In this document: positions 26,911 through 45,364 of the stretch, one piece after another
How positions within the stretch are numbered: position 1 is the stretch's first letter
How the letters are laid out: each line of letters begins with the position of its first letter
DNA from: a virus
Virus record (IMG/VR): IMGVR_UViG_3300043775_000604
Location: 1-61,529 of that record
DNA: 61,529 nt
Strand: one strand, 5' to 3'
Notes under the pieces: generated by a model
What the model was told of the DNA's origin: nothing
What the model saw: only the letters and a program-made list of their open reading frames with translations
The model's database searches: none
Position numbers and translations under genes: made by a program

Positions 26911-29900
26911 ATGTTTGAATACATCGATGCCTCTGGGCAAATATATACAGAAGATCAAATCAACAAAATGGCAGCCGAGCAAAAAACCTCGGCTAATGCC
27001 ATTATAAAAGACAAAGGATTAAAAAGAAAATCTTCAATGGTTTCAGCTTCTGCAAAGCCAGCTAAAAAAACATATCCTTGGAGTGATCAAACAAAAGAAA
27101 AAAAATCAGAAGGCGATTTTCTTGGCACATTCAAAAAAGCTCAGAAGAATAAAAAAGCAAATATAAAGAAGAGCACTGAGGAAGTATCAGCATTTGTAGG
27201 TAAACAAAATGATTATTCGTTTTACCAAAAAGATCCTATACAAGACATTTTAAATCCAACTAGCGAATTTGAAAAAGCTATTGCAAATATTCCAATTAAA
27301 AAGGAATTTGAGATACTAGAAGAGAAGGAAGCAGAAGTAATGAATTATATAAAGAGCAAGCCTATTGACTATGCCTCTATTGATAAATTATATGCAGATG
27401 AGGTTAACGATTCTCAAACAATAGATTACATTAGAGAAGGTGCAAAAGGGTTCCTTAATGATGTTATATTAAGCCCAGTATCTATGGTAGGGCAAGTTTT
27501 AGGCGCTGATATAGATATGACTATATCTCCATACAAGCCATTAGAGACACAAAAAAAGAAAGCTATAGATATATTATCAAAGAAAGCTAAAAAAGGCCAG
27601 AAAATAAACGCTGCAGATGTTGATGCGTTAGCTAAGGAGATATTTTATAAAGAGCAAGTATTAATACAAGAGGGCAAAGCTGCGGAAGAATATTGGGATG
27701 ATCAACCTTTATACATCGGAGAAGTAGCTGCACAGAAAGAAAAATTAAAAATAAGAGCAGTACAAGATGTATTGGTATCTTCTGATTTAGCTAGACAACA
27801 AACTATATTAGCTAAAACATATAACAGCCAATTATCTTCATTTGAAAAGTATGCAAATCTTTTTAAAGACAAATATACTAAAGGGGAAGTTACAGAAGAA
27901 GAAATAGCTACTTACGAAACAAGAAGAGAAGATGCTAGAAAGGCTATGGATAACCTTAAAGGTATTGCAGATAATTATCCTGCTTATGTTGATAAAATAA
28001 AAACAGACGAAGAGAAATTAGAGTATTTCAAATATAATTATGATGATGTAACCGCTAATCTATCCAAGTTTATTGGTACTGGTATAAATATATTAGGTGG
28101 AGCTACAAAGTTAATTGGATCTACAATTGAATATGCTGAAGGAGACGAAAAAGGATTAGGTGGATTTTTAGGAGAAGTTGGTACTGCTAATATAGAAATG
28201 GGTAATAAAATAAAAGAAGATGCTAAGAATATATCATTTGATAATGTTAATTCTTTTGGTGACTTTGGTAAATATTTTGCTGGACTAGTTTCAGAACAAT
28301 TACCTATTTATGCAGCAATGTATTTTGGTGGGAATTATGGATTGGCCGCTGTATCAATGGGAGCTGGTGGGCAGAAGATCCAAGAAATGGAAGATGAGAT
28401 TGGTTCTGATTATGATCTTGGTACAAAGCTTTTAGCTGGGTATGGGTTTGCTCTTTCAGAGTTTATACCTGAAAAATTAGGTACACTAAGGATGTTTGAG
28501 AACATGAAGAAAACAATGTCCGCGGTCAGCAAACAGCAAAGACAGCTATTCAAAGATAGCTTTATAAAGTCTAGTCTAAAAACAGCTGGTACTATTGGTT
28601 TTGAAAGTCAAATAGAAGGAGCAACTGAAGTTGTTACCGAAGGATTAAACATGCTTTTAGACGAGCATTTATTAGGCCAGCCAGTTTCTCCAACAGATAG
28701 AGTCAAAAGATTTAAAGAGGCTTATGCTGGAGGCGCATTTATGGGAGGAGGAGCTCAATTTGCAGGTGGTGTATCAACTTTAGTGGCTAAAGAATTAAAG
28801 AACTACGCCACAGATAAAGAGTTAGCTGCTAGTAAAGCAATAATGGAACGTATTGACTTTTTGCAAAATGAATTACAAACTAACCCTAGATTATCTGGAA
28901 AAGAAAGTGAAGAAATAATAACTGAAATAAAAAAGCTCAGTAATGAAGCTGTTAAAGTTATTGAAAATTCAGAAGACAGAGTGTATGACATGTCAAAGGA
29001 AGACATGGTTGATGTTCTACTTATAAACAAACAACAACAAGATCTTAGAGACGCTTACGTTGAATTATCTCAGTCAAACTTTTCGCCAGAGATTAAGAAA
29101 GAAAAAGTAGCAGAATTAAAAAAGCAATTTGGCGAGCTAGAGAATAAAAGAGAATACTTATTAACCGGTAAGTATGCTGAAATAAATAAAATAATAGGTA
29201 ACAGAACTATTATTAATAGCGGAGCCGATAATATAAGAAAAATTGTAGCTTCATTAGGTGAAGAAAATATTGAGAATAGAATAGGTGGTCAAGGATCAAT
29301 CGCTGTATTTGAAGATATCGACTCACTTAAAAAAGCTTACAAAGAATGGTTAACAACCGAAAATAATACTATTAAAAAGAAGATTGCTGATGGCGAACTT
29401 CCTGCTAATACAAAAATAAAATCAGAAGATGAAATAACTAATGATGTAAATGAAGCTGCAAAAAACGATGGATTTGCATTGCCAAATGGTCAATCTGTTA
29501 TTAATCTTAGTGTAGCTTCAAGAACTGGAGCTATTAACGTTGCGCAGCATGAGTTTTTGCATAAAGTATTAGCTAAAGCCCTCAGTAACCCAGTAGAAAG
29601 AAAAAAAATTGTTAATGGGTTTTTAGCTACATTGACGAATAAAGAAAGAGCTGCTGTTCAAAAACGTATTGATGAAAACTATTTAAACCCTGAAACAGGT
29701 AAGATAGACGACGAGAACCTTGAAGAATATTTTACAGCGTTTATTGATGCTATTGCTTACGGAGAAATAGGTAATAGAAATCAAGTTAAAGATGTATTAA
29801 GAAGAGCTGCTCGTCCAGTATTAAAAGTATTACAGAAATTAGGATTCTCTAACGCTAAATTTAGCGAAGGAAGAGATTTCTATGACTTCTTAAAAGAATA

Positions 29901-32900
29901 TCAATCTAACGCTAGTAAGGGCAGAATAAGTAACAGAGCTAAAGCTTTATTAGATGGAGCATCTGTAGCTAGACCTATTAGATACTCAAAGTCAATTGAA
30001 GAACGCATGGACGATTTGGATGAGCAACTTAATGATGGCGAAATTGACTACGACACTTACGAGAAGAAAATGGTTGCTCTGGAAAAAGAGGAAGCTGAAA
30101 TGAAACGTAAAGAATACGAAGAAAAGAAAGCAGAAACGGGTAAGGAGCCAGAAGTTAAGAAAGCAGACAAAAAAGCTACAAAGCAAAAAGAGCCGAAATC
30201 AAAAGAGGAAATAGAGATAAGTGAAGTTGCCGCTAAAGCTAAAGCTAAGCTTGATGCTATTGGTAATGATCCAAGAGGTTACAATCCAAATAATCCAACC
30301 ATATATGATGAGTTAGCTAAAATGGTTAAAGTAAAATCGCGAAACTGGAGAACAAACAAAGGAACTGTTATAGATTTTACAAATAAAGATAAGGGCGGAT
30401 TAGACGGTTTTAGTTTAGAGGAAATGGTGAGTTATGTTAGAACATCGATGATACCATATATTGCTAAATTTGATCCCTCTAAAAATAATAGTTTATACGG
30501 ATATATAAATGCTCAGTATATAAACCGTATGCGCGGCGCATTAAAAAGCGGGGAAGTTGCTGATGTGGTATTTACTGAGGATGTTACTGAAATGACAAAA
30601 CTATCTGCGGAGGATGTTGAGCCAACAAAACCATCTTTACCGGAAAGAAAACGTTTTCAAAATATATTAGAATCTGGTGTATTCAGCCCTGATGTTATTG
30701 AAAATATACAAGCAAAAATATTACCAGTTGTAAGAACTTTAAGAGCTAATATCAACGAGAAAACATCTTTGAATAGAACTGTAGCTCCAATTATTAGTGA
30801 GATACGTGATGAGATGGGTAAGCAAGCTGACATTGATATTAAAAAAGCAATGGGTGGAAAAGAAAATCAAGAATTACAGAATTGGTTAATCACTAATAAA
30901 AAGACTATTCTTGAGAACATGACAACAACATGGCTTATGGGTAAAGACATGGGCGATAAAGTTGCTGGTGGTATGCCGTTTGCCATACAAAAAAGAGTAG
31001 ATGGCCGATGGCTTAATTACCCTGCTTGGGTTGGTAAAAAGATAGATAGAGAATCTGTAGACGTTGACTTAGCTGGTAGAACAGCTGGTCACGAGATGGC
31101 AAGAAGATTACCTGAGGTGAATAGAAATGTTGAAACAATGGAATATTTATCTTCAATTATAGATTTAGAAACGGGTAATCCAATTAGAGGTAGGAAAGAA
31201 TCTTTAGCTAAAGCATTAGCAGAGGAGGTATCATTTGATATTATATCTGATGACTTATCTTCTAACGGCCCTATTGCACAAGCATTAAATAGAAACCAAC
31301 AATTAAAAGGAGCTGTAGTTGAAGACATAATAGTTGAAGAGTTTAATAGATTAGCAGAAAGAGGAAATGTTAAATTTTCTATATCTAATACAAACATCGA
31401 CTTAAATGCAGCTGCTAGATTTATGATAGACTCTAAAGGCAATATGGATGTCATAAATGCAGCAATAAACAATAAGTCTAAAAATTACAATATAAATGAA
31501 TTCCAAAAACTATACAAGTATATAACTAAGTATGGTGTAACAGATGAGGACTTAAAGTATCTAATGGATAAATACAGTGATGTATCTAACGAAGTTGCTG
31601 GTCCTCTTATGAATGACAAAGAAGTTAAATTCTCTAAATCATTGGAGAATAATTTGAATTCATATAATAAATCCGATAAGGGTATTACATTAGTCTCTGA
31701 TTATATTGCTGAAAACAATATTAAGAGAATAGATGCGGAAACCGCTTTCGATGTCTTAAACGATCTTAATAAGTCAATTGAAGATTGGTGGAGTGTCGTT
31801 GAAAATAAAACAATAGAAGGCATGATGAGTTCTGTTGATTATGCGTTTGATGTAATCGAAGATCGTGAGAACGAAGGCGGACCTATGATGGCCGCTGTAA
31901 ACAATGCTCTTAATTTAGAGACAATTAAGTTTGCTGAGAAGCAATTAAACGATTGGATTAGTAACGACACTAAGTGGAAAGCAAGACCTAAATTTAGTAA
32001 GTCATTATCCACTCTTTCACAATTTAATGATATAAGTAAATCTGAAAAAGAATTTATTGATATTTCTGAGAAGTTTGTTAAAGATGTGATGAATAAAAGC
32101 GGGTTGAATAGAAAAGCTATACAGCTTGAGACATTAACTATAAAAGAGGATAATGAGCTATATAATTTTGATCAGGAATATCAAGAGCTATATGATAAAG
32201 ATTATGACGGCACAATAACAGAAGCTGAGAGGGCAAGGATGGAGGAAATATATAAAAGTAATGTATTAGCTAAACAGGTTAATAAGATACTTGAAATATA
32301 TACTAAAGCAAAGATTAACAGCAATAATAATGATATAGTAAATGCTGTTGAAAGTTCAATGCCTAAAAAAGCTTTAACTACTACAAAATTTAGTAGATCA
32401 GGAGGGCCTCTTTCTTCTGTTGAAGAAACCTCTAAAGCTGTAACAGGAGTCATTGACAATATAGACCTGCGTAGCTTTCCTTTTGAAGATCAATCTGCAG
32501 TACAAGCTTTTATCGATGTAGTTAATAACATAAATAAACTAGGTTATAACGTAAGTGATATAAAAACATTTAAAGACTATTTTGACTTTGTAAACCAGAA
32601 CGAGGTAATTAAAGAATATCTAGAAGCTGTAGGCGAAATCGAAGGATTAAATGATATATACAATACTCATGTAGAGAACGTATCAATATATGAAATGGAA
32701 CCGGTTGTATATGGAATAGATACAGATGCTTCAAGAAATAATACCTACATATTAGCCTCTGATGTAATAGACCCTAATTCAGGTGAAATTATTGCTAAAG
32801 CAGGAAGTAAAATAAATGAGGGTATCATTGAAGAAATAAACACTAAAGGTAAAGGATCTATAAAAGAAGTTGAAGTATTTATAGGTAAAATGGCTATGGA

Positions 32901-35448
32901 TAGTAAAATTCCTAACAAGGATTTATTAAAACTAAAAGACAGCATTGCAGATCTTTCTTTAGCGTCAAAAAGAAAAGTAGCTGAAGCAATTTCAGAGAAG
33001 TATCATAAAGCAAAGAGTAAAGGAGATACGGAAGTTGAAAACGCTAGAACATTGACAAAAAAAGAAAGGACAGAGGCTATAGCTAAACTTACGGACTCTC
33101 AGAAAGAGGACTTATTCGTAATAGATGTAGTAGAGAATGTTGTTCCTAAAGATAATGGATCTAGACCTGGTAAATCTTTAGATTATGAATTTAATGACAT
33201 GCTTGAACGTAATAAAGGTGTACCATCATACGAAAAAATATCTGATATTGTTGCGAAAAGGAAAGGGGCAAAAGTAAATAGATTTTCTTTCTATATTCCT
33301 CCTTCAGCTGATGATTTTATTGGACTGACTTCATATATGTTTGCAGGCAAAGGCAAGCAGGGAGAATTAGACCAACAGTTTTTTACGCGTTACTTAATTA
33401 TACCTTATGTAAAAGGAATAAATACACTAGATACAGTAAGACAATCTATAAAGAAATCATACAAAGAACTATTATCAAGTTTTCCTGAAATAAAATCTAA
33501 GTTAGAGAAACTTATTCCTGATAAGTCATTTACATACGATCAAGCTATTAGGGTTTATTTATGGGCAAAGAATGATATAGATATACCGGGTTTAGATAGA
33601 AAAGATAAAAATAAGCTAGTATACATAGTAAAAAATGATCCAGACTTAATTGCATTTGCTGAAGCTTTATCTATTGCTGGTAGGCAAGACGGCGGTTGGT
33701 GGAAACCGTCTACTACATGGGATAGTGAAACTATTATATCGGATCTACACAACATTACAGAAGGCGATGGTAGAAAAATGTGGCTAGAGGAGTTTATAGA
33801 AAACGCTAACACAATATTTTCTAAAGAAAACCTAAACAAAATTCAATCTATATATGGTACCAGTGTAAGAGAGGCTTTGGAAGACGCATTATATAGAATG
33901 AAAAACGGGAAAAATAGACCTGAAGGCACGGATGCGTTAACCAACAGATGGATGAATTGGATAAACGGATCCACTGCTGCGATCATGTTTTTCAATTTAC
34001 GTTCCGCTATTTTACAAACGATATCTACTACAAACTATTTGAATTGGAGTGATAACAATCCTTTAATGGCAGCAAAAGCGTTTGCAAATCAAAAACAATA
34101 TTGGGCGGATTTCGCTATGATTATTAATTCTGATAAATTAAAAGAAAGAAGATCTGGATTGAAAGCTGATGTTACGCAATCTGAAATTGCAAATGCGGCT
34201 AATAATGCAAAAGATAAAGCAAGAGGTGTTCTATCTTATCTACAGAAAATAGGGTTTACGCCTACACAAGCAGCTGATAGTTTTGCGATTGCATTAGGAG
34301 GATCTACTTTCTATAGAAATAGAGTTAATACCTATTTGAATAAAGCAGACGAAGACGGGAACTTGATATATACAGAAAAAGAAGCAGAAGATTTAGCTTG
34401 GCTTGATTTTTCAAGAGCAACTGACCAGTCAATGCAATCTGCTGATCCATTGTATGTTTCAAAACAACAAACAACTTCATTAGGGCGCCTTGTACTAGCT
34501 TTTGCTAATACTCCTATGCAATATAATAGATTAATTAAAAAAGCTTCATTAGACTTAGTTAATAGGCGTGGCGATTGGAAAACAAATATATCAAAAATAG
34601 TATATTATGGAGCCTTACAAAATATTATATTTTCAGCATTACAAGCAGCTTTATTCTTACCATTTGATGACGAGGAAGAAGATATTGCCAATATGACTAA
34701 AGAGCAGAAAAAAGAATATGAAAAGTTAAAAAAGAAAGAAGACGATAAAGCTATTAATATTTTAAATGGGATGGCTGATACATTGTTAAGAGGATCTGGT
34801 ATTACAGGTGCATTAATATCTACTATTAAAAATGTTTACATGGAATATAATAAGCAAGAACAAAGGGAGATGTTTGCGGACCATGCTTATACTATATTAG
34901 CTGCTGCGGGTATATCTCCACCTATAAGTTCCAAGGCTAGAAAATTATACGGAGCGCATCGTACAAAAAAATTCGATAAAGATGTAATAGCTGAACGCGG
35001 ATGGGAAATAACAAAAGACGGTAAGCTTAATCTTAGTCCTAATTATCAAATAGTCGGTAATATAGCTGTAGCAACTACAAATATTCCTCTAGATAGGGTT
35101 GTTGAAAAAGTAAATAATGTATCTGAAGCATTAGATTCTCGTAATACAAAACTACAAAGAACAGCATTAATGCTTGGATGGAAAGCGTGGGAATTGAATG
35201 TTAAAAACGAAGAAAGCGAAGCAATCAAAGCAAAAGCTAAAGAAGTAAGAAATAAAGAAGGGGTAGAAAAAGCTATAGAAACTAGAGAAAGAAAGACAGA
35301 TTCAATAAAGCAAATGATAAAAGAAATGCCTAGTGCTGAAAGAAGTGCTTACCTTAGAAAGCAAAAGCTAGAAAGAAGAGAGAAGACTATTGAAAAAAGA
35401 AAGAAAGCTATAGCTAAAAAGAATAAAAGAAGAATGGGCGGTGATTAA
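26911..35448 (+). CDS. Giant multidomain virion (polyvalent) protein
   Basis: A 2845-residue protein, probably carried in the virion and ejected with the DNA. Visible parts: Lys-rich N-terminus; Gly/Ala-rich hydrophobic segments at about 451-490 and 607-625; zinc peptidase-like HEFLH at 880-884; charged linker 1030-1140; a sigma-2-like helix set with AKFDPSKNNSLYGYIN at 1183-1200; an EF-hand-like loop DKDYDGTITEAE at 1762-1773; conserved hydrophobic helices at 2350-2380 and 2563-2595; basic coiled-coil end. Five KFSKS-type boxes (1024, 1488, 1573, 1694, 1826) punctuate the middle. It resembles phage large polyvalent proteins. No polymerase motif found. Confidence 0.75.
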   Translation: MFEYIDASGQIYTEDQINKMAAEQKTSANAIIKDKGLKRKSSMVSASAKPAKKTYPWSDQTKEKKSEGDFLGTFKKAQKNKKANIKKSTEEVSAFVGKQNDYSFYQKDPIQDILNPTSEFEKAIANIPIKKEFEILEEKEAEVMNYIKSKPIDYASIDKLYADEVNDSQTIDYIREGAKGFLNDVILSPVSMVGQVLGADIDMTISPYKPLETQKKKAIDILSKKAKKGQKINAADVDALAKEIFYKEQVLIQEGKAAEEYWDDQPLYIGEVAAQKEKLKIRAVQDVLVSSDLARQQTILAKTYNSQLSSFEKYANLFKDKYTKGEVTEEEIATYETRREDARKAMDNLKGIADNYPAYVDKIKTDEEKLEYFKYNYDDVTANLSKFIGTGINILGGATKLIGSTIEYAEGDEKGLGGFLGEVGTANIEMGNKIKEDAKNISFDNVNSFGDFGKYFAGLVSEQLPIYAAMYFGGNYGLAAVSMGAGGQKIQEMEDEIGSDYDLGTKLLAGYGFALSEFIPEKLGTLRMFENMKKTMSAVSKQQRQLFKDSFIKSSLKTAGTIGFESQIEGATEVVTEGLNMLLDEHLLGQPVSPTDRVKRFKEAYAGGAFMGGGAQFAGGVSTLVAKELKNYATDKELAASKAIMERIDFLQNELQTNPRLSGKESEEIITEIKKLSNEAVKVIENSEDRVYDMSKEDMVDVLLINKQQQDLRDAYVELSQSNFSPEIKKEKVAELKKQFGELENKREYLLTGKYAEINKIIGNRTIINSGADNIRKIVASLGEENIENRIGGQGSIAVFEDIDSLKKAYKEWLTTENNTIKKKIADGELPANTKIKSEDEITNDVNEAAKNDGFALPNGQSVINLSVASRTGAINVAQHEFLHKVLAKALSNPVERKKIVNGFLATLTNKERAAVQKRIDENYLNPETGKIDDENLEEYFTAFIDAIAYGEIGNRNQVKDVLRRAARPVLKVLQKLGFSNAKFSEGRDFYDFLKEYQSNASKGRISNRAKALLDGASVARPIRYSKSIEERMDDLDEQLNDGEIDYDTYEKKMVALEKEEAEMKRKEYEEKKAETGKEPEVKKADKKATKQKEPKSKEEIEISEVAAKAKAKLDAIGNDPRGYNPNNPTIYDELAKMVKVKSRNWRTNKGTVIDFTNKDKGGLDGFSLEEMVSYVRTSMIPYIAKFDPSKNNSLYGYINAQYINRMRGALKSGEVADVVFTEDVTEMTKLSAEDVEPTKPSLPERKRFQNILESGVFSPDVIENIQAKILPVVRTLRANINEKTSLNRTVAPIISEIRDEMGKQADIDIKKAMGGKENQELQNWLITNKKTILENMTTTWLMGKDMGDKVAGGMPFAIQKRVDGRWLNYPAWVGKKIDRESVDVDLAGRTAGHEMARRLPEVNRNVETMEYLSSIIDLETGNPIRGRKESLAKALAEEVSFDIISDDLSSNGPIAQALNRNQQLKGAVVEDIIVEEFNRLAERGNVKFSISNTNIDLNAAARFMIDSKGNMDVINAAINNKSKNYNINEFQKLYKYITKYGVTDEDLKYLMDKYSDVSNEVAGPLMNDKEVKFSKSLENNLNSYNKSDKGITLVSDYIAENNIKRIDAETAFDVLNDLNKSIEDWWSVVENKTIEGMMSSVDYAFDVIEDRENEGGPMMAAVNNALNLETIKFAEKQLNDWISNDTKWKARPKFSKSLSTLSQFNDISKSEKEFIDISEKFVKDVMNKSGLNRKAIQLETLTIKEDNELYNFDQEYQELYDKDYDGTITEAERARMEEIYKSNVLAKQVNKILEIYTKAKINSNNNDIVNAVESSMPKKALTTTKFSRSGGPLSSVEETSKAVTGVIDNIDLRSFPFEDQSAVQAFIDVVNNINKLGYNVSDIKTFKDYFDFVNQNEVIKEYLEAVGEIEGLNDIYNTHVENVSIYEMEPVVYGIDTDASRNNTYILASDVIDPNSGEIIAKAGSKINEGIIEEINTKGKGSIKEVEVFIGKMAMDSKIPNKDLLKLKDSIADLSLASKRKVAEAISEKYHKAKSKGDTEVENARTLTKKERTEAIAKLTDSQKEDLFVIDVVENVVPKDNGSRPGKSLDYEFNDMLERNKGVPSYEKISDIVAKRKGAKVNRFSFYIPPSADDFIGLTSYMFAGKGKQGELDQQFFTRYLIIPYVKGINTLDTVRQSIKKSYKELLSSFPEIKSKLEKLIPDKSFTYDQAIRVYLWAKNDIDIPGLDRKDKNKLVYIVKNDPDLIAFAEALSIAGRQDGGWWKPSTTWDSETIISDLHNITEGDGRKMWLEEFIENANTIFSKENLNKIQSIYGTSVREALEDALYRMKNGKNRPEGTDALTNRWMNWINGSTAAIMFFNLRSAILQTISTTNYLNWSDNNPLMAAKAFANQKQYWADFAMIINSDKLKERRSGLKADVTQSEIANAANNAKDKARGVLSYLQKIGFTPTQAADSFAIALGGSTFYRNRVNTYLNKADEDGNLIYTEKEAEDLAWLDFSRATDQSMQSADPLYVSKQQTTSLGRLVLAFANTPMQYNRLIKKASLDLVNRRGDWKTNISKIVYYGALQNIIFSALQAALFLPFDDEEEDIANMTKEQKKEYEKLKKKEDDKAINILNGMADTLLRGSGITGALISTIKNVYMEYNKQEQREMFADHAYTILAAAGISPPISSKARKLYGAHRTKKFDKDVIAERGWEITKDGKLNLSPNYQIVGNIAVATTNIPLDRVVEKVNNVSEALDSRNTKLQRTALMLGWKAWELNVKNEESEAIKAKAKEVRNKEGVEKAIETRERKTDSIKQMIKEMPSAERSAYLRKQKLERREKTIEKRKKAIAKKNKRRMGGD

Positions 35449-35813: not shown

Positions 35814-37682
35814 CTATACAATCTCACAGTTACCTCCTCCACAAGCTGCTGAATCAACAAAGTTAGTATTGTCTTGAACTTCAATTACTTTTGATAGATC
35901 AACATTCTTTAATGTAGACATCATCTCCTCGTAAACTTCTTTGGTACAATCTTCAAATGGAGTTTGTTTGTATGTTCCGCCATTATATGGTAAAACAGAT
36001 AATCCATTATAGTACTCTTTATTTGCCCACATCCATTCACCAATGATTTTCCATTCATCATCTCTGACAGAAACAGTGCAAGATACGTTATGAGTATTGT
36101 TGCCTTTATCGTGACCTGTCTTAACCCAATCCTTAGATATAAGTTTTACTCTTTCTAATAGATCTAATGTAGACTCATGTCGTGTTATAGCTCCGTCTGG
36201 AGCCTTCTGAGGAACAGAAATGACTGACTGTAATGTTGGATTAAAATATTCATCTTCTAACAGTTCTGGATGATTTATTGCAAGATATGAATATATTGCT
36301 TCATTCTTACCTAGTCTCATTCTTCGAATATAATAATCATTATGCCAAGCATGTATACCAGAAGAAGTACCAAGCACAAGACTAGTAGTACCTGCTGGCT
36401 TAACTGCTGTAGTTCTAGCAGCTTTATTAATATTAAGAGCAGCAGAAATAATACTATTTGTTTCTTTAACAACTTTAGACGCCTCTTCATAATTTAATTC
36501 TAAGTTAGATTTTGATGCAATACCGGTCATTGACACTCCAAGCAATGCATCTTTTTCTGTATTCTTTCTCCATATATCACGTAAGTAATGGAAGTCTGAA
36601 TACGATGCCTGTAATGTTCCTAAGAACGATGCAGCTGATGCTCTAGCGTTGAAATCTTCTTGATTCTCAATATCAGCCATATTAATTTCCGTTAAATTAC
36701 AGAATTGATAGGGTCTTAACGCAATTTCGCAACAAGGATTAGTTCCCCAATCTTTATCATTAGTAAGATAAATACCAGGTTCACCAGATCCAGACGCTTC
36801 AATACGTTCCCATACTTTGTCGAAGGTTTTCTTGTCAATCTTATGGCGTAATAAAACTACAGAGTTATTAGCTCTACCTCTTTGTGGATTCTCTTCCCAC
36901 CAATTTCCAGCTTTACAATTCAACATTGCGGTACTATCAAGATCAAATAATGAAATCATCGCAGCTCTACGAATTCCCCCAGCTAAAACAGCATCGGCAA
37001 TATGACACTGAATATCGTGACACTCAATATCTGTTAATTTAGATCTATCTTCTTTCTCTCTTAAGATAGCTTCAACCTTCACTAAAGCTAATCTCAATGG
37101 CTCTGGACCTGGTGCTTTTCCGCCTGCTGTAACAAGCAATGCTCCTTTGTGGCGAATATCTGAAAGATCAAATTCAATATGTGAGGTAAGCTCACCTGTA
37201 TAAGATTTAAACAATGTTTTAATTGCATCTGCCCATCCAATTATACTGTCTTGAACAACGTATCTTTTCTTACGATCATAATTAGGTTTTCTTATTTCCG
37301 GTAATTTATCAATGTTGTGATTTTGTACCGAATATCCAACGCCAGTTCCTCCAAGTAATAAAAACATAGTCTCGGAGAAGCTACGAATATTATCAATAGG
37401 TAGAAAAGCGCAGTTATAAATACGAGCATTATTAAGCTCAATAGCTTTACCACCAAACTGTAAGCTTCGCATCGATGGTAAAACTTTTTTAGTGAACACA
37501 AAATCTTTGTATATCTGCTCAATTTGTTCTTTCATTTGCGGAAATTTGGCTTTGTGCATATCCATATTCCTGGTTACTAATTCTTCCCACGTTTCTCTTC
37601 GTTCTTTTGATGGAATATACTTTGCATACTTGGTGTATACGGTTATATCTGACAAGATCTGCTTATCTAAACTAAGACTCAT
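35814..37682 (-). CDS. nrdJ: Class II (B12-dependent) ribonucleotide reductase
   Basis: A 622-residue monomeric adenosylcobalamin-dependent reductase that makes deoxyribonucleotides without oxygen dependence. The catalytic set is present: YNC with Cys91 and QFC with Cys328 as the redox pair, NPCCE with Asn315, thiyl-radical Cys317 and Glu319, and C-terminal shuttle cysteines Cys614 and Cys619. It is shorter than the Lactobacillus RTPR (about 740) but keeps all these sites. It needs host cobalamin. With the MazG and thymidylate synthase-like genes it supplies the nucleotide pool. Confidence 0.92.
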   Translation of the reverse strand: MSLSLDKQILSDITVYTKYAKYIPSKERRETWEELVTRNMDMHKAKFPQMKEQIEQIYKDFVFTKKVLPSMRSLQFGGKAIELNNARIYNCAFLPIDNIRSFSETMFLLLGGTGVGYSVQNHNIDKLPEIRKPNYDRKKRYVVQDSIIGWADAIKTLFKSYTGELTSHIEFDLSDIRHKGALLVTAGGKAPGPEPLRLALVKVEAILREKEDRSKLTDIECHDIQCHIADAVLAGGIRRAAMISLFDLDSTAMLNCKAGNWWEENPQRGRANNSVVLLRHKIDKKTFDKVWERIEASGSGEPGIYLTNDKDWGTNPCCEIALRPYQFCNLTEINMADIENQEDFNARASAASFLGTLQASYSDFHYLRDIWRKNTEKDALLGVSMTGIASKSNLELNYEEASKVVKETNSIISAALNINKAARTTAVKPAGTTSLVLGTSSGIHAWHNDYYIRRMRLGKNEAIYSYLAINHPELLEDEYFNPTLQSVISVPQKAPDGAITRHESTLDLLERVKLISKDWVKTGHDKGNNTHNVSCTVSVRDDEWKIIGEWMWANKEYYNGLSVLPYNGGTYKQTPFEDCTKEVYEEMMSTLKNVDLSKVIEVQDNTNFVDSAACGGGNCEIV

Positions 37683-37699
37683 ATTTATTTATTTGGTTT

Positions 37700-37849
37700 T
37701 TAATTATCAATTTCTAATGCAATATCTATAAACGGTAAGTAAAACACATAAGTTGTATAATACTCTTCTACGTAGGCTCTGAAACCGAATAGTATTCCAG
37801 AATATATCCCAAGAGATATTGACCAGTTCTTTTCACTAAATTTATTCAT
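37700..37849 (-). CDS. Small hydrophobic protein
   Basis: A 49-residue ORF filling the gap between the reductase and the nuclease gene; its ATG lies one base from the stop of the upstream gene. It has an aromatic, partly hydrophobic sequence (SLGIYSGILFGFRAY and YYTTYVFYLPF) that could insert in a membrane. Support is from tight packing only. Confidence 0.5.
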   Translation of the reverse strand: MNKFSEKNWSISLGIYSGILFGFRAYVEEYYTTYVFYLPFIDIALEIDN

Positions 37850-38296
37850 CTATTTTTTGTTTTGGTTAGCTAATATTAATTCTATTGTTTTAAGGCACTC
37901 CGGTTGATTTTGTGGTTTGTATAAAGTTCTTCTGTCATCATTGTCCATCATCCACTTTTTAAACATCTTCCAACGCAAGGGAAACGAGTCATTAGCTCTT
38001 CCCTTAGTTTCGATTATGAATGTTTCGCTAATAAAGTCAGGAGTGTATTTAAGATTTAATACCTTTTTTAATCCTCTATCAATAAAATCTCCTTTTCCGT
38101 TTGATTGTCTTTCTATTGATGAGTTTTCAAATGTAAAAGAGGGTAACAATTCAAACGTTACCCCCTCATATTTAAAATCTATATTAGCATCTTTCAAAGC
38201 TTTATACATATACTTCTCAAGACCTGACTTAAACGTAATACCATCATATATTATTTTCTTTGACACTACTGGCCCTTTCTTTCTACTCTTTGCCAT
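37850..38296 (-). CDS. Endonuclease I-like PD-(D/E)XK nuclease
   Basis: A 148-residue basic nuclease with Glu27 (FKSGLEKYMY), Asp87 (YTPDF) and Glu96-x-Lys98 (IIETKGR), the ordered residues of T7 endonuclease I-type Holliday junction resolvases. It probably resolves branched DNA before packaging and may degrade host DNA. It overlaps the upstream MazG-like gene by 14 bases, in a cluster of replication genes. Confidence 0.75.
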   Translation of the reverse strand: MAKSRKKGPVVSKKIIYDGITFKSGLEKYMYKALKDANIDFKYEGVTFELLPSFTFENSSIERQSNGKGDFIDRGLKKVLNLKYTPDFISETFIIETKGRANDSFPLRWKMFKKWMMDNDDRRTLYKPQNQPECLKTIELILANQNKK

Positions 38297-38726
38297 TCAT
38301 ACAACAGTTAGTACAACAATGACTCCATTCAATATCGTCATCTATAGTAAAAGAATATGTATCACCTCTGCGCACTTTATAAGCTTCTTTTTTCTTTTTT
38401 TTCTTTTTCTTTTTTGGTTCAGCAAGAATTTCAAATCCTTTAAACGGAGAGACAAATTCTGGATCTTCAACTTCAATAAAATTTGCCTTAGAACGTTCAA
38501 TCCATAAATCTTCTAATACATCTTCAATCTCAATCTTTAATCTTTGGATATATAATGTAGCATCCATCAATTCTTCTTGAACATGATTAAGCCAAACTTT
38601 AATATCAGACTTGTCATCAATCATTGTTTTGCCATATTTAGCAAAGCCTACATCAGATCTTGATACAAACTTATTTACTACTTGTTGTACAACTGGGTCT
38701 CTAAATTCAATTTCTTGTTTCTTCAT
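38283..38726 (-). CDS. MazG-like NTP pyrophosphatase domain with Lys-run and Cys tail
   Basis: A 147-residue protein. Residues 20-70 form an all-alpha MazG-like domain (GFAKYGKTM, then VQEELMDATLYIQ, with Glu51, Glu52, Asp55). Residues 105-113 are nine lysines in a row, coded by an A-run that includes eight consecutive A. The end has a CCTNCC cluster (137-142) that may bind metal. It is probably a nucleotide house-cleaning enzyme, and is next to a second MazG-like gene. Confidence 0.6.
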   Translation of the reverse strand: MKKQEIEFRDPVVQQVVNKFVSRSDVGFAKYGKTMIDDKSDIKVWLNHVQEELMDATLYIQRLKIEIEDVLEDLWIERSKANFIEVEDPEFVSPFKGFEILAEPKKKKKKKKKEAYKVRRGDTYSFTIDDDIEWSHCCTNCCMNGKE

Positions 38727-38727
38727 A

Positions 38728-39549
38728 TTATAAAGTTGATTTTACAAAAGTTCCATTCTCCATTTTACCTTTTCTATTCTTAATTACATCATAAGCTGAT
38801 GTAACACAATCTTCAATTTTTAATCCTTCTAATGCAGCCAGATTAGTTAATACAACAACTGCATCACCAATAGCATCAATCAATTCAGCTCTATCATTTT
38901 TTAATATGGCTCTAGCAAGTTCTCCTGTTTCTTCTTGAAGTTTAATAAACTGAGTTTTAGCATCTCCAGATCTATATATACCTTTATTATCAGCCCATTG
39001 TCTAATTAGATCATATACATTTGGAACTTCTTTATTAACTTCTTCAGGGTAATTTTTATATTCCAATGTTGTTGATTTTTTACCTCTAGACATTTGAAAT
39101 TCGTTTAAAGCTTTATTGTACACATAAGATCTTGAAATATTGAACATTGATGTTTTAGCATTATCAATAATCCATCTGGCTAATTCTTCATCTACAATAT
39201 ATTTGCCAAATGATGTTTCAATTTTTAATCCTAAGTTGTCCATTAAATTACCTTTTAATTTGTTAACAGGACAAGGAAATGTTGTCGTCTGTTCAGTTAC
39301 ATTTAATACCATAGTGTTTTTCTTTTGTTTAGTTTTATTTATTATTAAATCTTTATATGAATCACGATCTACTTTATAGCCATGCCTTAACTGTAATTCA
39401 GCTTCTCTTTTGGAGACATAGTTTATATTATCACTGCATTCAAGCACCTCGTATTCTCCAGGCAAATAGCCTTGTTCTATTGTAACTCTCTTATTAAGAT
39501 TACGCGTTACGCCAATCTTTTTACCAAAAACATGATAGATAAAATACAT
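38728..39549 (-). CDS. GIY-YIG-like and MazG fusion protein
   Basis: A 273-residue two-domain protein. Residues 1-60 resemble a small GIY-YIG-type domain (YFIYHV, then KIGVTRNLNKRV, then EVLE), with a weak catalytic set. Residues 175-270 are a clear MazG nucleotide pyrophosphohydrolase: Glu207 and Glu210 in EETGE, Glu222 and Asp225, Asp229 in IDAIGDA. The middle 80-170 is unassigned. It may remove non-canonical or host alarm nucleotides during replication. The nuclease half is uncertain. Confidence 0.7.
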   Translation of the reverse strand: MYFIYHVFGKKIGVTRNLNKRVTIEQGYLPGEYEVLECSDNINYVSKREAELQLRHGYKVDRDSYKDLIINKTKQKKNTMVLNVTEQTTTFPCPVNKLKGNLMDNLGLKIETSFGKYIVDEELARWIIDNAKTSMFNISRSYVYNKALNEFQMSRGKKSTTLEYKNYPEEVNKEVPNVYDLIRQWADNKGIYRSGDAKTQFIKLQEETGELARAILKNDRAELIDAIGDAVVVLTNLAALEGLKIEDCVTSAYDVIKNRKGKMENGTFVKSTL

Positions 39550-39557
39550 AATTTAGA

Positions 39558-40343
39558 TTAAATGGCCACTTTTGCCGTAATTACTGGACCGTGTTTATAA
39601 TTTATTAAGGATAATGCTCCGTTTTCATAAATATAGTTGGGAGATTCAAAAGTCTCTTGCCCGAAATATTCACGTATAGCATCATGTTGGTTGTTATATA
39701 TGTGAGCATCCACAATCTGTATATCAATATAGTTTGCTTTGAGGTTTGTTTTTTCAGCCACATATAAAAGTATTTTAGAAAACAACGCAACATCATAAGG
39801 TATACCTAAGAATAGATCTCCAGATCTTTGTACTACAAACATATTAAGATAGTCTTTTTCAACAAAGAATTGGAAATACAAATAGCACGGAGGCAAGCGC
39901 ATTTGATCTAGCTGACAAGGATTCCACAAGCTTATAATATGTCTACGGCTATCTGGATTGGCTATTAATTGTTCAATAAGCGTTTGCATTTGATCAATAT
40001 TTTGATCGTTAAAATTGCGCATTTGATGTCCGTATACTGGCCCAAGATCTCCATTCTCATCTGCCCAAGCATCCCATATTTTTACGCCCGCATCTCTGAA
40101 TCTTTGTATATTAGTTTCGCCATTCATAAACCATTCGAACTCTGTATCAAATGTTTTTTGAAACATTTTTCTACCTGTTATTAATGGGAATTGTTTGTGA
40201 ATATTAATTCTTAAACTAGCATTGAATATAGACTTACAACCAACGCCAGTACGATCGTCTCTATCTACTCCTTGAGCAAGTGCTTTCCATAATAATGATT
40301 TGTATTGATCCTCGTATGTATGTGACTTAAAATAGTTGTTCAT
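39558..40343 (-). CDS. thyA: Thymidylate synthase homologue, possibly dCMP-specific
   Basis: A 261-residue ThyA-family enzyme with catalytic Cys153 (LPPCYL), the QRSGDLFLGIP phosphate and base loop, and a DAHIYNNQ block. The Asn that reads the uracil ring in ThyA (E. coli Asn177, in LPFN) is Asp184 here (IPYD). In T4 dCMP hydroxymethylase this position is Asp and gives dCMP specificity, so the product may be a 5-substituted dCMP and not dTMP. GHQM replaces the usual GxQW. Overlaps the next upstream gene by 17 bases. Confidence 0.85.
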   Translation of the reverse strand: MNNYFKSHTYEDQYKSLLWKALAQGVDRDDRTGVGCKSIFNASLRINIHKQFPLITGRKMFQKTFDTEFEWFMNGETNIQRFRDAGVKIWDAWADENGDLGPVYGHQMRNFNDQNIDQMQTLIEQLIANPDSRRHIISLWNPCQLDQMRLPPCYLYFQFFVEKDYLNMFVVQRSGDLFLGIPYDVALFSKILLYVAEKTNLKANYIDIQIVDAHIYNNQHDAIREYFGQETFESPNYIYENGALSLINYKHGPVITAKVAI

Positions 40344-40683
40344 TTATTATTTGTTTTGGTTTTTGTTTAGCTGGTTCTTCTTTTATATATTTCTTTGGTT
40401 GAACTTCTTTTATAACTTTTACGCCACTGTGCTTATCATAGTAATACGTATAAAACTTATAAATTTCTTTCCATATTTCAATCTTCTCATAAGCTAATGG
40501 GCTTTGTGTAACTTTACCGTTTAAAGTAATACATATATACCATTCAGTCGTACTCTTAGCTTTAGGAGCAATAAATATATTATTATGTATGCACCAAGCG
40601 TAAGCCGCTTGCTCTCTGTCTTTGGCTACATAATTACCCATATCTATTGCTTTGCTTTTCTTAGATCCACTACCCATTATCAA
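40327..40683 (-). CDS. Unknown conserved early protein
   Basis: A 118-residue basic protein. The first 80 residues are ordered (AAYAWCIHNNIFIAP, then EWYICITLNGKVTQSPLAY), the rest is Lys/Pro-rich. It overlaps the thymidylate synthase-like gene by 17 bases and its upstream neighbour by 14. ATG codons at residues 1 and 3 are both possible starts. No family recognised; the context is nucleotide metabolism. Confidence 0.6.
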   Translation of the reverse strand: MIMGSGSKKSKAIDMGNYVAKDREQAAYAWCIHNNIFIAPKAKSTTEWYICITLNGKVTQSPLAYEKIEIWKEIYKFYTYYYDKHSGVKVIKEVQPKKYIKEEPAKQKPKQIINEQLF

Positions 40684-40873
40684 TTAATTTTAATCCATAA
40701 TGTTTGTCTTTTATTCTTATGGTAAAACATGAATACTCAGGAATTTTTATAAACATGGTATCTATTGAATTATGCCCTATGTCCTCATATTCTTCCCCGT
40801 ATATTAAAAATTTTGGATATGGAGGTGTTTCTATTAGTTCATATTCTTTACCTTTAAATATTAATTTATCCAT
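40670..40873 (-). CDS. Small early protein
   Basis: A 67-residue protein with alternating beta-like strands (LIFKGKEYELIETPPYPKFL, then MFIKIPEYSCFTIRIKDKHYGLKLI). It overlaps both neighbours, which supports translation. Function unknown. Confidence 0.55.
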   Translation of the reverse strand: MDKLIFKGKEYELIETPPYPKFLIYGEEYEDIGHNSIDTMFIKIPEYSCFTIRIKDKHYGLKLIDNG

Positions 40874-41000
40874 ATTTTTTAATTATCAATTTAGCAATTT
40901 TTTTGATAAGTAGTTCACATGATTCACATTTATCGCCTTCCTCGTCAACGCGAATAAATTGACAGCATCTACATTTTGGTTTTGATTTATCTATTCCCAT
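40866..41000 (-). CDS. Tiny Cys-rich (zinc ribbon-like) protein
   Basis: A 44-residue protein with KCRCCQ near the start and KCESCE after a 13-residue acidic spacer, a plausible zinc ribbon, followed by a basic tail. It overlaps the stop of the primase-helicase gene and the start of the next gene, in the usual compact early style. Possibly a small replication accessory; the role is not known. Confidence 0.6.
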   Translation of the reverse strand: MGIDKSKPKCRCCQFIRVDEEGDKCESCELLIKKIAKLIIKKYG

Positions 41001-42718
41001 GGCAACTTATCTCCTGAAGCATTGACTGGAACATGAGGAATAAAACATCCTGACTTTGGTTCCCAAACAAAATGACATTCAGCACCATTCTCACCAAGAT
41101 TTTGAAACTTAACCTTTAGTACTTTTACTTTTACAGTTTTCTCTTCGTAGTTTCTATGCACTAATAAACCGTGATAGGATGCATCATACCACTCGCCTCC
41201 GCCCTTAATATTATACATGGTTGGTTCTTCAATTTTACCATCGGAGCCTTTATACATTTTAGTTGGATGCGCAACAACCATTACTAGAACATCGTATTTC
41301 TTAGCAAAGATTTCAATCTTACTTAAGTATTCCAATGTATATACATTAACATCACCTGAAGCATCATTATCTCTAACTTTATTGAATGGATCTATAACTA
41401 AGCATTTAATACCTTTACGCTTTACTAGTTCGCCTGCTTTCTTTAACACAGCATCTAATGTATATCTTTCCATGTCAATGAAAAAGAAATTGTCGTTAAC
41501 ATGATTAGCAACTTGATTCCATCTCTCAGAATAAATATCTGCTTCTGTTGGCATACCTTCCCAAACTTTACGCATTAACTTATGAGCATGTAAATAAGTA
41601 GGTGTATTCTCAGGTGAAGCATAAGCTGTTTTCCAACCATAGTTTTTATTATAGCCTACAACCATTTGATCAACGAAATCAGACTTACCCGAACTAGGCA
41701 CACCAGTAACAGTAATAAACTGACCAGTATAAGTGCTGAATATATCATCGAAATTAGGTAATCCAATTTGGAAGCCAGGTTTGAAACCATTCCTAACAAA
41801 GTCCGTAATCTCATCTTCTATATCTTTAAATGTTGTAACGTTTTCTAATGGTACAGGTTTTGCTTTTCCAATTCTTTGCGCTAAAGCTTCTTTACCATAT
41901 TTCAATAAATACTCATTAGCATCTTTACAATCCTCAAACGTGGCTATATAACAAACTTCAGATCCTAATCTTCTAATCAATTCAGATTGTAATGCTTGAC
42001 CAGCTTCATCTGAATCTACCGCAATGATTATTCTATTCTTATCATCGAAGTAATCAATACAGTTATCTAAGTATTCAAGGTTGTTTGTATGTAGTGTTGC
42101 GCCATTAGGTACTGAAATAGCATTTGTTATTCCTGCTTCTGCAAGGGCTAATACATCCATCTCTCCTTCTACTAGTATGCAGTAATCCCAACCTACGATG
42201 CTGTTGATATTATAGAATACTTTTTCTGCTCCTTTGTAAAGCTTAAAGTTTTTACGGCCATCTCTGTATTTTATATTAACAAGATCATCGCCTATAAAGT
42301 AATTAAACTTTATTACGCTTTCTGTTTTAGCTGTTTGAGGCATGAACTCTGATCCGTCTGTAACTTTTAACTCTTCTAATGTGTTTCTTGATATGCCTCG
42401 TGTTGCAAACCATTCCACTACCTTATCAGATAAAGGATAAGTTAAACCTGAATCAAGAACAGTATCTCTCTCTGGTTTTACATATACTTTTTGCGTTTCG
42501 CCTTTTCTTTTATAAGTATGTAATTGAAATGACTTACTACAATTGTGGCAAGTACCAATTCCTCTTTCCCAATCATAAGAGGCACATTTTGCTTTCTTGT
42601 GTTCACCTTTTCTGTCAGCTGAACATAATGGACAAATACCTTGGGTTTTTTCTTCCAATCCATATTGATTAAAAGAATCTATTTGGAATCCATTTATTTC
42701 GGTTTTGTTTACTTGCAT
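40991..42718 (-). CDS. Bifunctional primase-helicase (T7 gp4 type)
   Basis: A 575-residue replication protein. N-terminal zinc-binding domain with Cys29, Cys32, Cys57 and Cys60; Toprim primase core with VEGEMD (Glu184) and AVDSDEAG (Asp235, Asp237); RecA-like DnaB helicase with Walker A GVPSSGKS at 339-346, Walker B LVIDPF (Asp443) and VVAHP (His484). It should unwind the fork and prime lagging-strand synthesis. A terminator lies just upstream, so it may be transcribed less than the recombination genes. No DNA polymerase partner is encoded in the window. Confidence 0.95.
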   Translation of the reverse strand: MQVNKTEINGFQIDSFNQYGLEEKTQGICPLCSADRKGEHKKAKCASYDWERGIGTCHNCSKSFQLHTYKRKGETQKVYVKPERDTVLDSGLTYPLSDKVVEWFATRGISRNTLEELKVTDGSEFMPQTAKTESVIKFNYFIGDDLVNIKYRDGRKNFKLYKGAEKVFYNINSIVGWDYCILVEGEMDVLALAEAGITNAISVPNGATLHTNNLEYLDNCIDYFDDKNRIIIAVDSDEAGQALQSELIRRLGSEVCYIATFEDCKDANEYLLKYGKEALAQRIGKAKPVPLENVTTFKDIEDEITDFVRNGFKPGFQIGLPNFDDIFSTYTGQFITVTGVPSSGKSDFVDQMVVGYNKNYGWKTAYASPENTPTYLHAHKLMRKVWEGMPTEADIYSERWNQVANHVNDNFFFIDMERYTLDAVLKKAGELVKRKGIKCLVIDPFNKVRDNDASGDVNVYTLEYLSKIEIFAKKYDVLVMVVAHPTKMYKGSDGKIEEPTMYNIKGGGEWYDASYHGLLVHRNYEEKTVKVKVLKVKFQNLGENGAECHFVWEPKSGCFIPHVPVNASGDKLPWE

Positions 42719-42754
42719 TGTATATAATTAAATTGTTACTAATTGTAGATAGAA

Positions 42755-42775
42755 AGACCCCAATTAATGGGGTCT
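42755..42775 (-). terminator. Hairpin terminator between SSB-like and primase-helicase genes
   Basis: Perfect 8-bp stem (AGACCCCA and complement) with a 5-base loop, followed on the - strand by TTTCTAT. It lies in the only sizeable gap (112 bases) of this part of the operon and may attenuate readthrough into the helicase gene. Confidence 0.75.
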
Positions 42776-42830
42776 AAACTACTAAAGCGTTCTATTAAAA
42801 TTGGAAGTTATTGCGCCTATACCTGATAAA

Positions 42831-43157
42831 CTAAAACGGTAAATCGTCCGCTTGTGGTGTGAATGAAGCTGCATTAGATTGGCTAGGTGCTGGTGCACTA
42901 CCATCTGTTCTTGGAGCGGCAGCAACATTAGTGCCGTTTGTCCATACAACTTTTACATTACCAAGGTAAACCTTAGCTGCTTTTGATTCTCTTTCTTCCT
43001 TTGATTGTTCTACCATGATTGGTCCTTGATTTCCAAATTGATCAAACTCATCATTAAGTGTAATTGTAATAGGAAGGTATTTTCCTTTCTTGCCATCGAT
43101 GATTTTGTGTTTAGGAATCTCGTTTAAATTGATGCTTGCTTTAATAATTGAAGCCAT
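42831..43157 (-). CDS. Single-stranded DNA-binding protein-like
   Basis: A 108-residue protein with a beta-rich first part suited to an OB fold (IIKASINLNEIPKHKII, YLPITITLNDEF, AAKVYLGNVKVVW) and a disordered Pro/Ser/Ala linker ending in ADDLPF. That acidic tip is the hallmark of bacterial SSB, used to recruit repair and replication proteins. It sits with primase-helicase, RecE-like and ERF genes. Confidence 0.75.
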   Translation of the reverse strand: MASIIKASINLNEIPKHKIIDGKKGKYLPITITLNDEFDQFGNQGPIMVEQSKEERESKAAKVYLGNVKVVWTNGTNVAAAPRTDGSAPAPSQSNAASFTPQADDLPF

Positions 43158-43186
43158 AGTTTTTTATTTGTTTTAGTTAATAATTC

Positions 43187-43927
43187 TTAAAGTGTTTCTG
43201 TTATACAATAATCTTTTAGACTGAAGTTCTCATCTTTAAAGAACAGTCTATACGTTTCAACCGCTTTCTCTACTTTGAATTTACCGGATTCTAAGAACTG
43301 AGGAGAGCAATCATATACGCCAATTTTCTTAGACGTTTTATCTATGGCTATAAATACCATGTCCATATTAAAATACTTAGAATAAATGTATGCTTGGCTA
43401 TCGTAGTTATATTCCTTAGCGGAGTATCTGAATTTATCTATATCAGATGTTGTTTTTAAATCTACTATTAAACCTTGTGTATTATTCTTAATATCTGCTT
43501 TTAATTTGAACCACTCATCTTCTAATTGTATTAGGCCTGGTACTTCATAGTCTACATCTATGTCTCTAATTAGATCACGTGTAATTGAATTTTCTAACAC
43601 AGCATCTCTTAATAACGCTATTGAGTCGGCTTCGTGTTGCAATAAACACATTTCACCATTTGACAGCTCTTTGTACTTAGTAGTATTACGTGTTGTCGTA
43701 TCAATGATTCTGATCTTGTCAAGCTTATCTGGTTCTAATATCAATGTATGGAAGTATGATCCTTTAATTAAATTAGGATTGCCAACTATTGGTTGCTTGA
43801 ATGTTAATGGATCTTTTAGCAATGCTCTTATGTCTGAATTAGATAAGAACTGTTTGCCAAATTCACCATAATAATCTTCATCATTCTCTAATCTTTTTAA
43901 TACACTTTTGATTTGTTCGTCTGTCAT
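43187..43927 (-). CDS. RecE-like PD-(D/E)XK exonuclease
   Basis: A 246-residue nuclease with the order of motifs of the RecE / phage exonuclease VIII-like family: FLSNSDIRALLKDP and KGSYFH (His60), YEVP (Glu128), KADI (Asp145), VDLKTTSD (Asp156, Lys158), and NYDSQAYIYS. It would chew one strand of double-stranded ends to expose ssDNA for the ERF protein encoded 5 bases upstream. Together with the SSB-like gene this is a phage recombination module. Confidence 0.8.
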   Translation of the reverse strand: MTDEQIKSVLKRLENDEDYYGEFGKQFLSNSDIRALLKDPLTFKQPIVGNPNLIKGSYFHTLILEPDKLDKIRIIDTTTRNTTKYKELSNGEMCLLQHEADSIALLRDAVLENSITRDLIRDIDVDYEVPGLIQLEDEWFKLKADIKNNTQGLIVDLKTTSDIDKFRYSAKEYNYDSQAYIYSKYFNMDMVFIAIDKTSKKIGVYDCSPQFLESGKFKVEKAVETYRLFFKDENFSLKDYCITETL

Positions 43928-43931
43928 ATAG

Positions 43932-44504
43932 TTATAGTGTTAATTCTTTTAATGCAGCAGCCGTTAAATCATACTTTGTTTTTATTGCATCTAATGAACC
44001 TCCACTAGCAATGAATGCTTTTGCTTTTTCAAATGCTGCGTCACCAACATCAAGCTTACTTTTAGTTATTGTAGCTGATGCTTTACCGTGTGTATTAGTT
44101 GCATCGGCATCTTGTGTGTCATCAATCAAAAGTAGATTACCTAATGCATACTTCTTGCCATAAGAGGATGCTGATCCAAATGCTTGTGGTGTTTGCATAC
44201 CTTTCTGAACTAGGTCAACACCTACGACAGCTGTAGCTTCAATAGAATCTGTTCCGTTAACATCATAAATTGTAGCGCTTGATAACATAATAGGCAATGA
44301 TCCATTATATGTTACGTGTTCTTTAACTACAAAATAAACGCCATACTTTTCATTAAAAGGTTTTAATGCTTCTAATATGTCTTCTGCGGATCTAAAATTG
44401 TACTTACCAAATGAATTGTACTTACTTTTATTAGCCTTAAATTCTACTTGAATCTTGGATAACTTTTCGTGCAAAGACATTGTTTGTTCTTCTTTTTTTG
44501 CCAT
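43932..44504 (-). CDS. ERF-family ssDNA annealing protein
   Basis: A 190-residue protein with the ERF core (SFGKYNFRSAEDILEALKP, then GSASSYGKKYALGNLLLIDD, then QDADATN at 131-137). ERF proteins anneal complementary ssDNA and work with an exonuclease; the RecE-like gene follows after 5 bases. The C-terminal 45 residues are a linker and a small helical end. A 27-bp palindrome lies about 50 bases upstream of its start. Confidence 0.88.
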   Translation of the reverse strand: MAKKEEQTMSLHEKLSKIQVEFKANKSKYNSFGKYNFRSAEDILEALKPFNEKYGVYFVVKEHVTYNGSLPIMLSSATIYDVNGTDSIEATAVVGVDLVQKGMQTPQAFGSASSYGKKYALGNLLLIDDTQDADATNTHGKASATITKSKLDVGDAAFEKAKAFIASGGSLDAIKTKYDLTAAALKELTL

Positions 44505-44596: not shown

Positions 44597-45364
44597 TTAT
44601 AGGTAATCAAGGACTTGCGAGGAATCAACGTTCGCAACTAGTTTAGCTATCGCTTGCTTTTTTATCTCAGAAATTCTAACATAAGCACTTGCTCCTTCAA
44701 TACCTAAATAGTCTGCTATTGCATTTGCTGGATGCTTATCGCAGTCTAAACCGTAACTTAATCTCAATACATCGTTTTCTGTTTGTGTTAAATGTTTACT
44801 TAATAAATCTACTAAGTATTTATTCATTAAGTTTATATTGTAAGGCTCAGCTCTATCAGGGATCTGATACAACATATTGTCATCATCATCATCATCACTC
44901 ATTTGTTCATCGATGCTAAGGAATATTGAATTGAAGAACATTGATACCATTGCATGATCCTGACCATTATCCTTCCTAATTTCATTTAGTTTATGTTCTG
45001 GGATCTTAATAGCGCCTCTATTGATATCTATAGCTCTTCTAATCGAGCCTTTTATTCTTTTTGATAGAAACGACTTGATTGTTTTTTCTTGATCAACAGA
45101 CGAGCTTATTGTCTTCCATTCTATTTTATCAACAGCTAATATTAAACCAATTGATCCGTATTGAATAAGGTCTGTAATATCTAGTACACCGCAAGCTTGG
45201 GTTGTAGTTGAAAACTTTTTAGCTATGTTTTCTACTAATGGTAGAAACTTACTTATAAGTTGATCTCTAGAATAAGATTCAAAGTTAACTTCGTTGTTGT
45301 TTTTATTAACACGAGCTATATCTTCTTTGTATCTAATGTAATTTGGTATGTTGTAGCTTTTCAT
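44597..45364 (-). CDS. Phage RNA polymerase sigma factor
   Basis: A 255-residue sigma-70 family protein. Region 2 spans about 35-112 (LISKFLPLVENIAKKF, DLIQYGSIGLILAVDKIEW, FLSKRIKGSIRRAID), a region 3 start IKIPEHKLNEIRK is at 119-131, and region 4 spans 192-242 (LTQTENDVLRLSYG, then a helix-turn-helix ending KKQAIAKL). Six consecutive Asp near 157-162 form an acidic linker. It should redirect host RNA polymerase to phage promoters; the 16 repeated elements at 48.8-58.1 kb or the late elements are candidate targets. Confidence 0.85.
   Translation of the reverse strand: MKSYNIPNYIRYKEDIARVNKNNNEVNFESYSRDQLISKFLPLVENIAKKFSTTTQACGVLDITDLIQYGSIGLILAVDKIEWKTISSSVDQEKTIKSFLSKRIKGSIRRAIDINRGAIKIPEHKLNEIRKDNGQDHAMVSMFFNSIFLSIDEQMSDDDDDDNMLYQIPDRAEPYNINLMNKYLVDLLSKHLTQTENDVLRLSYGLDCDKHPANAIADYLGIEGASAYVRISEIKKQAIAKLVANVDSSQVLDYL

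Follow-up and report, generated by a model that had tools for sequence, protein, structure and literature searches.

The 2845-residue giant protein encoded in the window (the whole 61,529-nucleotide stretch of DNA analysed here, a 61.5-kb virus record) was interpreted as a virion-associated polyvalent protein of exchangeable modules, in which short KFSKS-type boxes are joints that are cut, probably by the protein's own zincin domain. The probability of this reading was put at about 0.5. The gene for the giant protein (26911..35448, + strand; ORF translation) is the last of a structural block ordered terminase-portal-virion proteins-giant protein, the same order as in Flavobacterium elemoviruses and Cellulophaga phage phi38:1. 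Its N-terminal region (residues 150-759; 27358..29187, +) was homologous to elemovirus gp20 (E 2e-38, 28.6% identity), which was labelled 'structural protein' by its depositors. This synteny, together with the depositors' labels of relatives, suggested that the giant protein is located in the virion.

A preliminary description of this DNA had listed five boxes in the giant protein: RYSKS at residue 1024 (29980..29994, between the zincin and a sigma-like region), KFSIS at 1488 (31372..31386), KFSKS at 1573 (31627..31641) and 1694 (31990..32004), and KFSRS at 1826 (32386..32400), all on the + strand and spaced by 464, 85, 121, and 132 residues. A motif scan reproduced these positions and spacings exactly, and the segments between the boxes were indeed unlike one another (best mutual BLAST E about 0.04). 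Each box had also been described as followed by a new charged segment. K+R contents of 10-16% and D+E contents of 15-19%, versus 15% and 16%, respectively, in the whole protein, are not unusual, so this statement adds nothing. The box at 1488 lies at a position (site A) with RGNxK[FY]S across the family. One joint had been missed. At about residue 2086, the border to the conserved C-terminal domain (residues 2088-2845; 33172..35445, +), relatives carry KFSKS and the window protein carries a degenerate box, RPGKS (site C; residues 2085-2089; 33163..33177, +). A weak box-like KFSEG was found at residue 983 (29857..29871, +), in a low-confidence stretch of the structural model past the zincin.

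In 3000 shuffles of the giant protein, [KR][FY]S-x-S was expected 0.14 times (maximum 3) and [KR][FY]S[KR]S 0.019 times (maximum 1), versus five and four observed occurrences, respectively. Boxes in giant proteins numbered 92, versus 14.5 after shuffling; the corresponding numbers for neighbouring ORFs were 10 and 4.8. When all six frames of the window were scanned, further matches to [KR][FY]S-x-S occurred only in open stretches of 70-94 codons that did not resemble protein-coding ORFs. As no box was present in other protein-like ORFs of the window, a capsid maturation site common to virion proteins was rejected as an explanation.

Relatives were collected by scanning IMG/VR with the C-terminal domain, which yielded 516 proteins, of which the best 80 were read. 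An alignment of homologues had been suggested as a way to see whether boxes sit at domain borders; once carried out, it placed them at module borders. Where close relatives had gained or lost a module, the break was located exactly at KFS|KS. The 96%-identical relative L001 runs ...APVKFSKSLDYEFNDMLER and lacks window residues 1829-2087, the module after the box at 1826 (32395..33171, +), which among the relatives read occurred only in the window phage. The preceding module (residues 1699-1825; 32005..32385, +) is present in L001 and absent from L003 and L018, which run ...ARPKFSKSLDYEFNDMLER and lack window residues from about 1697 to 2087, i.e., from the box at 1694 to the C-terminal domain. 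Close relatives keep the module at 1578-1693 (31642..31989, +) behind differing upstream modules. A module of one kind occurs in both L024 (= L032) and L035, flanked by two boxes and set in different surroundings.

For a breakpoint test, eight near-duplicates were dropped, leaving about 70 distinct relatives, and breakpoints were taken as the ends of stretches with at least 60% identity. Of 200 collapsed cases, 24 had the homology break no more than five residues from a box, versus 2.8 ± 1.6 at random positions (~9-fold); these cases are not all independent, because many concern one same joint. Module types were counted to lessen this dependence, with modules considered unrelated when no BLAST match spanning 35 residues reached E 0.01; distant kinship between them is thus possible. 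Before the C-terminal domain, 12 mutually unrelated module types were found, ten of which had [x][FYW]S nearby, about eight clearly; L064 and L105, whose match lies about ten residues off, were doubtful and were not counted as clear. After site A (RGNx), 11 of the 16 unrelated module types stood behind [KR][FYW]S. Several unrelated domains in one large polypeptide and an architecture that varies among relatives, as expected of polyvalent proteins, were thus accompanied by a recurring site at domain borders, as expected of a self-processing polyprotein.

The HEFLH motif noted earlier was present at residues 880-884 (29548..29562, +), within a zincin core of about residues 787-949 (29269..29757, +). 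HExxH occurred in nearly every long member among the best 80 of the 516 relatives. When 56 sequences, most of them ~20% identical to the window protein, were aligned, the only invariant columns were H880, E881, H884, and E939; as these sequences had been picked for HExxH, invariance of that motif partly reflects selection, and that of E939 does not. HExxH plus a downstream glutamate is the established ligand set of zincins (PMC5512222), and both elements were found here. The domain therefore carries all conserved metal ligands and is a predicted peptidase. AlphaFold2 modelled its core with pLDDT above 80 over most of its length and above 90 in the centre. Foldseek comparison of this model with the PDB yielded no significant match, probably because long helices dominate the model, and a comparison with BFVD yielded one uncultured viral protein (E 5e-6) and a weak match to elemovirus gp20. 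Among 28 further window proteins searched, a set without small ORFs and several right-arm ORFs, none matched a peptidase family.

From these observations, we infer both cleavage at the boxes and the role of the zincin as the enzyme. The N-terminal region, the zincin, the sigma-like region, and the C-terminal domain would form a fixed frame with swappable modules between them, for which the boxes would act as protein-level joints. The boxes would most likely be recognition sites for cutting of the chain, or at least for binding. The probable enzyme would be the giant protein's own zincin, acting in cis or in trans; cutting could take place either within the head or once the protein has been ejected, and each module would be released as a separate product. 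Cutting by its own zincin would account for the presence of a box at each joint, the free exchange of modules, the concerted box change described below, and the ever-present zincin. A further-reaching version, in which cassettes are swapped between lineage-specific boxes and a co-evolving zincin cuts every joint and frees injected effectors, is offered tentatively, as the odds appear to be somewhat against it. The last joints of the window protein (RPGKS), L029 (NDSKS), and L039 (KLGKS) have no intact box, which counts against cleavage, as do the box-free elemovirus homologue with its HEIFH motif, the lack of a solved zincin match in the structure search, and the poor model of the box region; four members of the family among the best 80 of 516 relatives contain no [KR][FY]S at all. 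The preliminary description had presented the boxes as either cleavage or docking sites. Their location at module borders, the conserved zincin, and the concerted box change agree with that pair of readings; the N4 virion RNA polymerase, which has a zincin and is reported to be packaged unprocessed (PMC5512222), speaks against cleavage.

Changes of the box appeared to be concerted within single proteins. In L055, L057, and L076, three or four joints, sites A and C among them, read KS[NS][KQR], and L098 carried KFASK at two joints, sites A and C. Shuffled sequences gave 0.4-0.5 matches to KS[NS][KQR] and 0.01 to KFASK, and none of 68 other members had three KS[NS][KQR] or any KFASK. Automatic site labels took the wrong stretch in L073, L076, and L095 and called 'site A' what is really site C in L082, L087, L090, L096, and L101; the concerted change rests on positions that were read directly. 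Since L055, L057, and L076 form one supported clade and L098 lies elsewhere in the tree, the concerted change represents two events. Its apparent restriction to two lineages counts against cleavage. Concerted changes hint at a partner able to read the box, and they would fit a shared recognition partner as predicted by either cleavage or docking.

Accordingly, the same data bear on an alternative in which the boxes are docking or handling sites in an uncut chain, with each module bearing a short signal bound by packaging, unfolding, or ejection machinery for loading and threading of a long polypeptide. Any shared binding partner would give the same placement at borders and the same concerted change, and the short, basic-aromatic boxes resemble what may often be seen in docking motifs. 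Large ejected proteins provide precedent, as illustrated by the N4 RNA polymerase and by P1 DarB, which has an N-terminal packaging signal (PMC9024508). However, an uncut chain should need a single signal, so that one copy per joint would be more economically explained by cutting, and the window giant protein has no box near its N-terminus. Docking without cutting was considered unlikely, if a serious competitor to cleavage.

Codon usage bears on a second alternative, in which the boxes are evolutionary joints only, whose linker DNA provides microhomology for module exchange and which have no biochemical partner. The homology breaks at boxes are consistent with this explanation; in addition, boxes 1694 and 1826 are identical at 14 of 18 bases, and the DNA of L001 and L003 is similar at the joint, which in both cases is perhaps enough for microhomology. 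However, the box serine was encoded by TCN in 33 and AGY in 4 cases at site A, versus AGY in 32 and TCN in 2 cases at site C, counts that within one site are non-independent because relatives share ancestry. No single silent change converts a TCN serine codon into an AGY one. The sites are therefore not recent copies of each other, and recent DNA duplication was ruled out as the origin of the boxes at sites A and C. Retention of the amino acid despite different codon families argues against microhomology as a full account, as do the persistence of boxes where identity of the C-terminal domain is down to 41-50% and the concerted amino-acid change within one protein. Recombination joints without a partner appear a poor explanation, with a low probability.

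A structural model of residues 1399-2304 placed the boxes at 1488, 1573, and 1826 and the border at 2088 in or beside stretches with pLDDT below 50, and the box at 1694 in coil near the edge of a low-pLDDT stretch. With a mean pLDDT of 59, this overall poor model lends weak support to the boxes as exposed linkers. That the boxes instead belong to a fold element shared by the modules, for example a strand capping each of them, is very improbable: the near-constant distance between the site C box and the C-terminal domain in many members would fit such an element, but L052, L054, L067, and L079 depart from this distance, the modules show no relation to one another, and model confidence is low at or next to the boxes.

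The architecture proposed for the giant protein resembles that of the polyvalent proteins of phages and conjugative elements, which are likewise very large, multidomain, and built of varying modules that surround a zincin (Iyer et al. 2017; PMC5512222). In that study, the zincin is the commonest domain of polyvalent proteins; its role is left open, and processing of these proteins by the zincin is proposed (PMC5512222). The passages of the same study that were consulted mention no recurring box at joints (PMC5512222). The frame domains of the giant protein, unlike those of polyvalent proteins, matched no Pfam or PHROG family above cut-off; nor did the whole protein and its modules, and searches for catalogued polyvalent domains (LPD, MPTase-PolyVal, ART-PolyVal) gave no Pfam match above cut-off in it. 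A match to a catalogued domain is usual and not required, as 40 new domains were added by Iyer et al. 2017 (PMC5512222).

Among individual systems, the N4 virion RNA polymerase (about 3500 residues) is ejected and has a large helical part C-terminal to its HExxH domain (PMC12633501). No RNA polymerase family was matched in the giant protein in Pfam or PHROGs, whose sequence profiles a very divergent member could escape. P1 DdrB and DarB are internal head proteins, of which DdrB has an HELGH motif and is reported to be processed (PMC5512222). A single RFS, at 756 in DdrB, and none in DarB indicated that these P1 proteins have no box system. Ejection proteins of SPN3US are cut at a short repeated motif by the prohead protease gp245 (PMC10052503); in contrast to a zincin acting in cis on KFSKS, this system has a separate prohead protease, the motif A-X-E, and N-terminal propeptides (PMC10052503). 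At the same gene place as the giant protein, elemovirus gp20, with N-terminal homology and an HEIFH motif, has no KFS boxes, and gp101 of Cellulophaga phage phi38:1 has neither KFS boxes nor HExxH. The box was rejected as a general mark of polyvalent proteins, as no such pattern was seen in four Bacteroidota giant proteins bearing LPD38 or ART or in P1 DarB and DdrB; in this small sample, it looks particular to the giant-protein family.

Uncultured viruses commonly carry this family, with 516 relatives in IMG/VR. In a phage collection, no match to the C-terminal domain of L014 was obtained, and the whole giant protein matched that collection only via its N-terminal region. Three matches were obtained in Bacteroidota genome assemblies, two of which carry a giant protein with several KFS boxes; the hosts are therefore probably Bacteroidota. 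The recurring box points to precisely defined candidate sites that can be tested and at which giant proteins can be divided up into products. If the cleavage reading is right, it would serve as a parsing rule for annotating giant proteins and finding new effector modules.

Some modules of relatives showed recognisable patterns. Between site A and the 1573 joint, L003, L017, L018, and L022 carry a module (GG-N/T...PD/AD...VExK) that by eye resembles a PD-(D/E)xK nuclease; a profile search with the L003 module gave no match. An HAD-like module (FDFDETL...VLTAR...DDA) precedes the C-terminal domain in L014 and many relatives, and in many ends at a box; it had only a weak DUF2608 match and, in phages, one weak match without boxes. 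The giant gene of L002 is split at about position 13770 into frames of 1279 and 1432 amino acids, while that of its near relative L003 is whole; this split is due either to faulty sequencing or to a genuine change of frame.

The sigma-70 region 2-like segment of the giant protein (about residues 1165-1220; 30403..30570, +) is kept in many relatives. Profile matches were weak: one relative reached E 0.008 against Sigma70_r2, short of the curated cut-off, and the best PDB profile match of the family was a sigma factor (E 0.016). A sigma-like domain carried in the virion would be of interest. For a separate gene (44597-45364, -), the Sigma70_r2 match was likewise weak and, at E 1e-4, narrowly missed the cut-off. 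The window further encodes a phage GroEL (2477-4039, +; PHROG match E 9e-130) and a GroES-like protein (8045-8647, +; PHROG match E 1e-23), and this chaperonin could aid folding or handling of the 320-kDa giant protein. Replication and nucleotide genes at 35817-44504 (-) include those for a ribonucleotide reductase-like protein, thymidylate synthase, MazG, a primase-helicase, ERF, and DUF3799.
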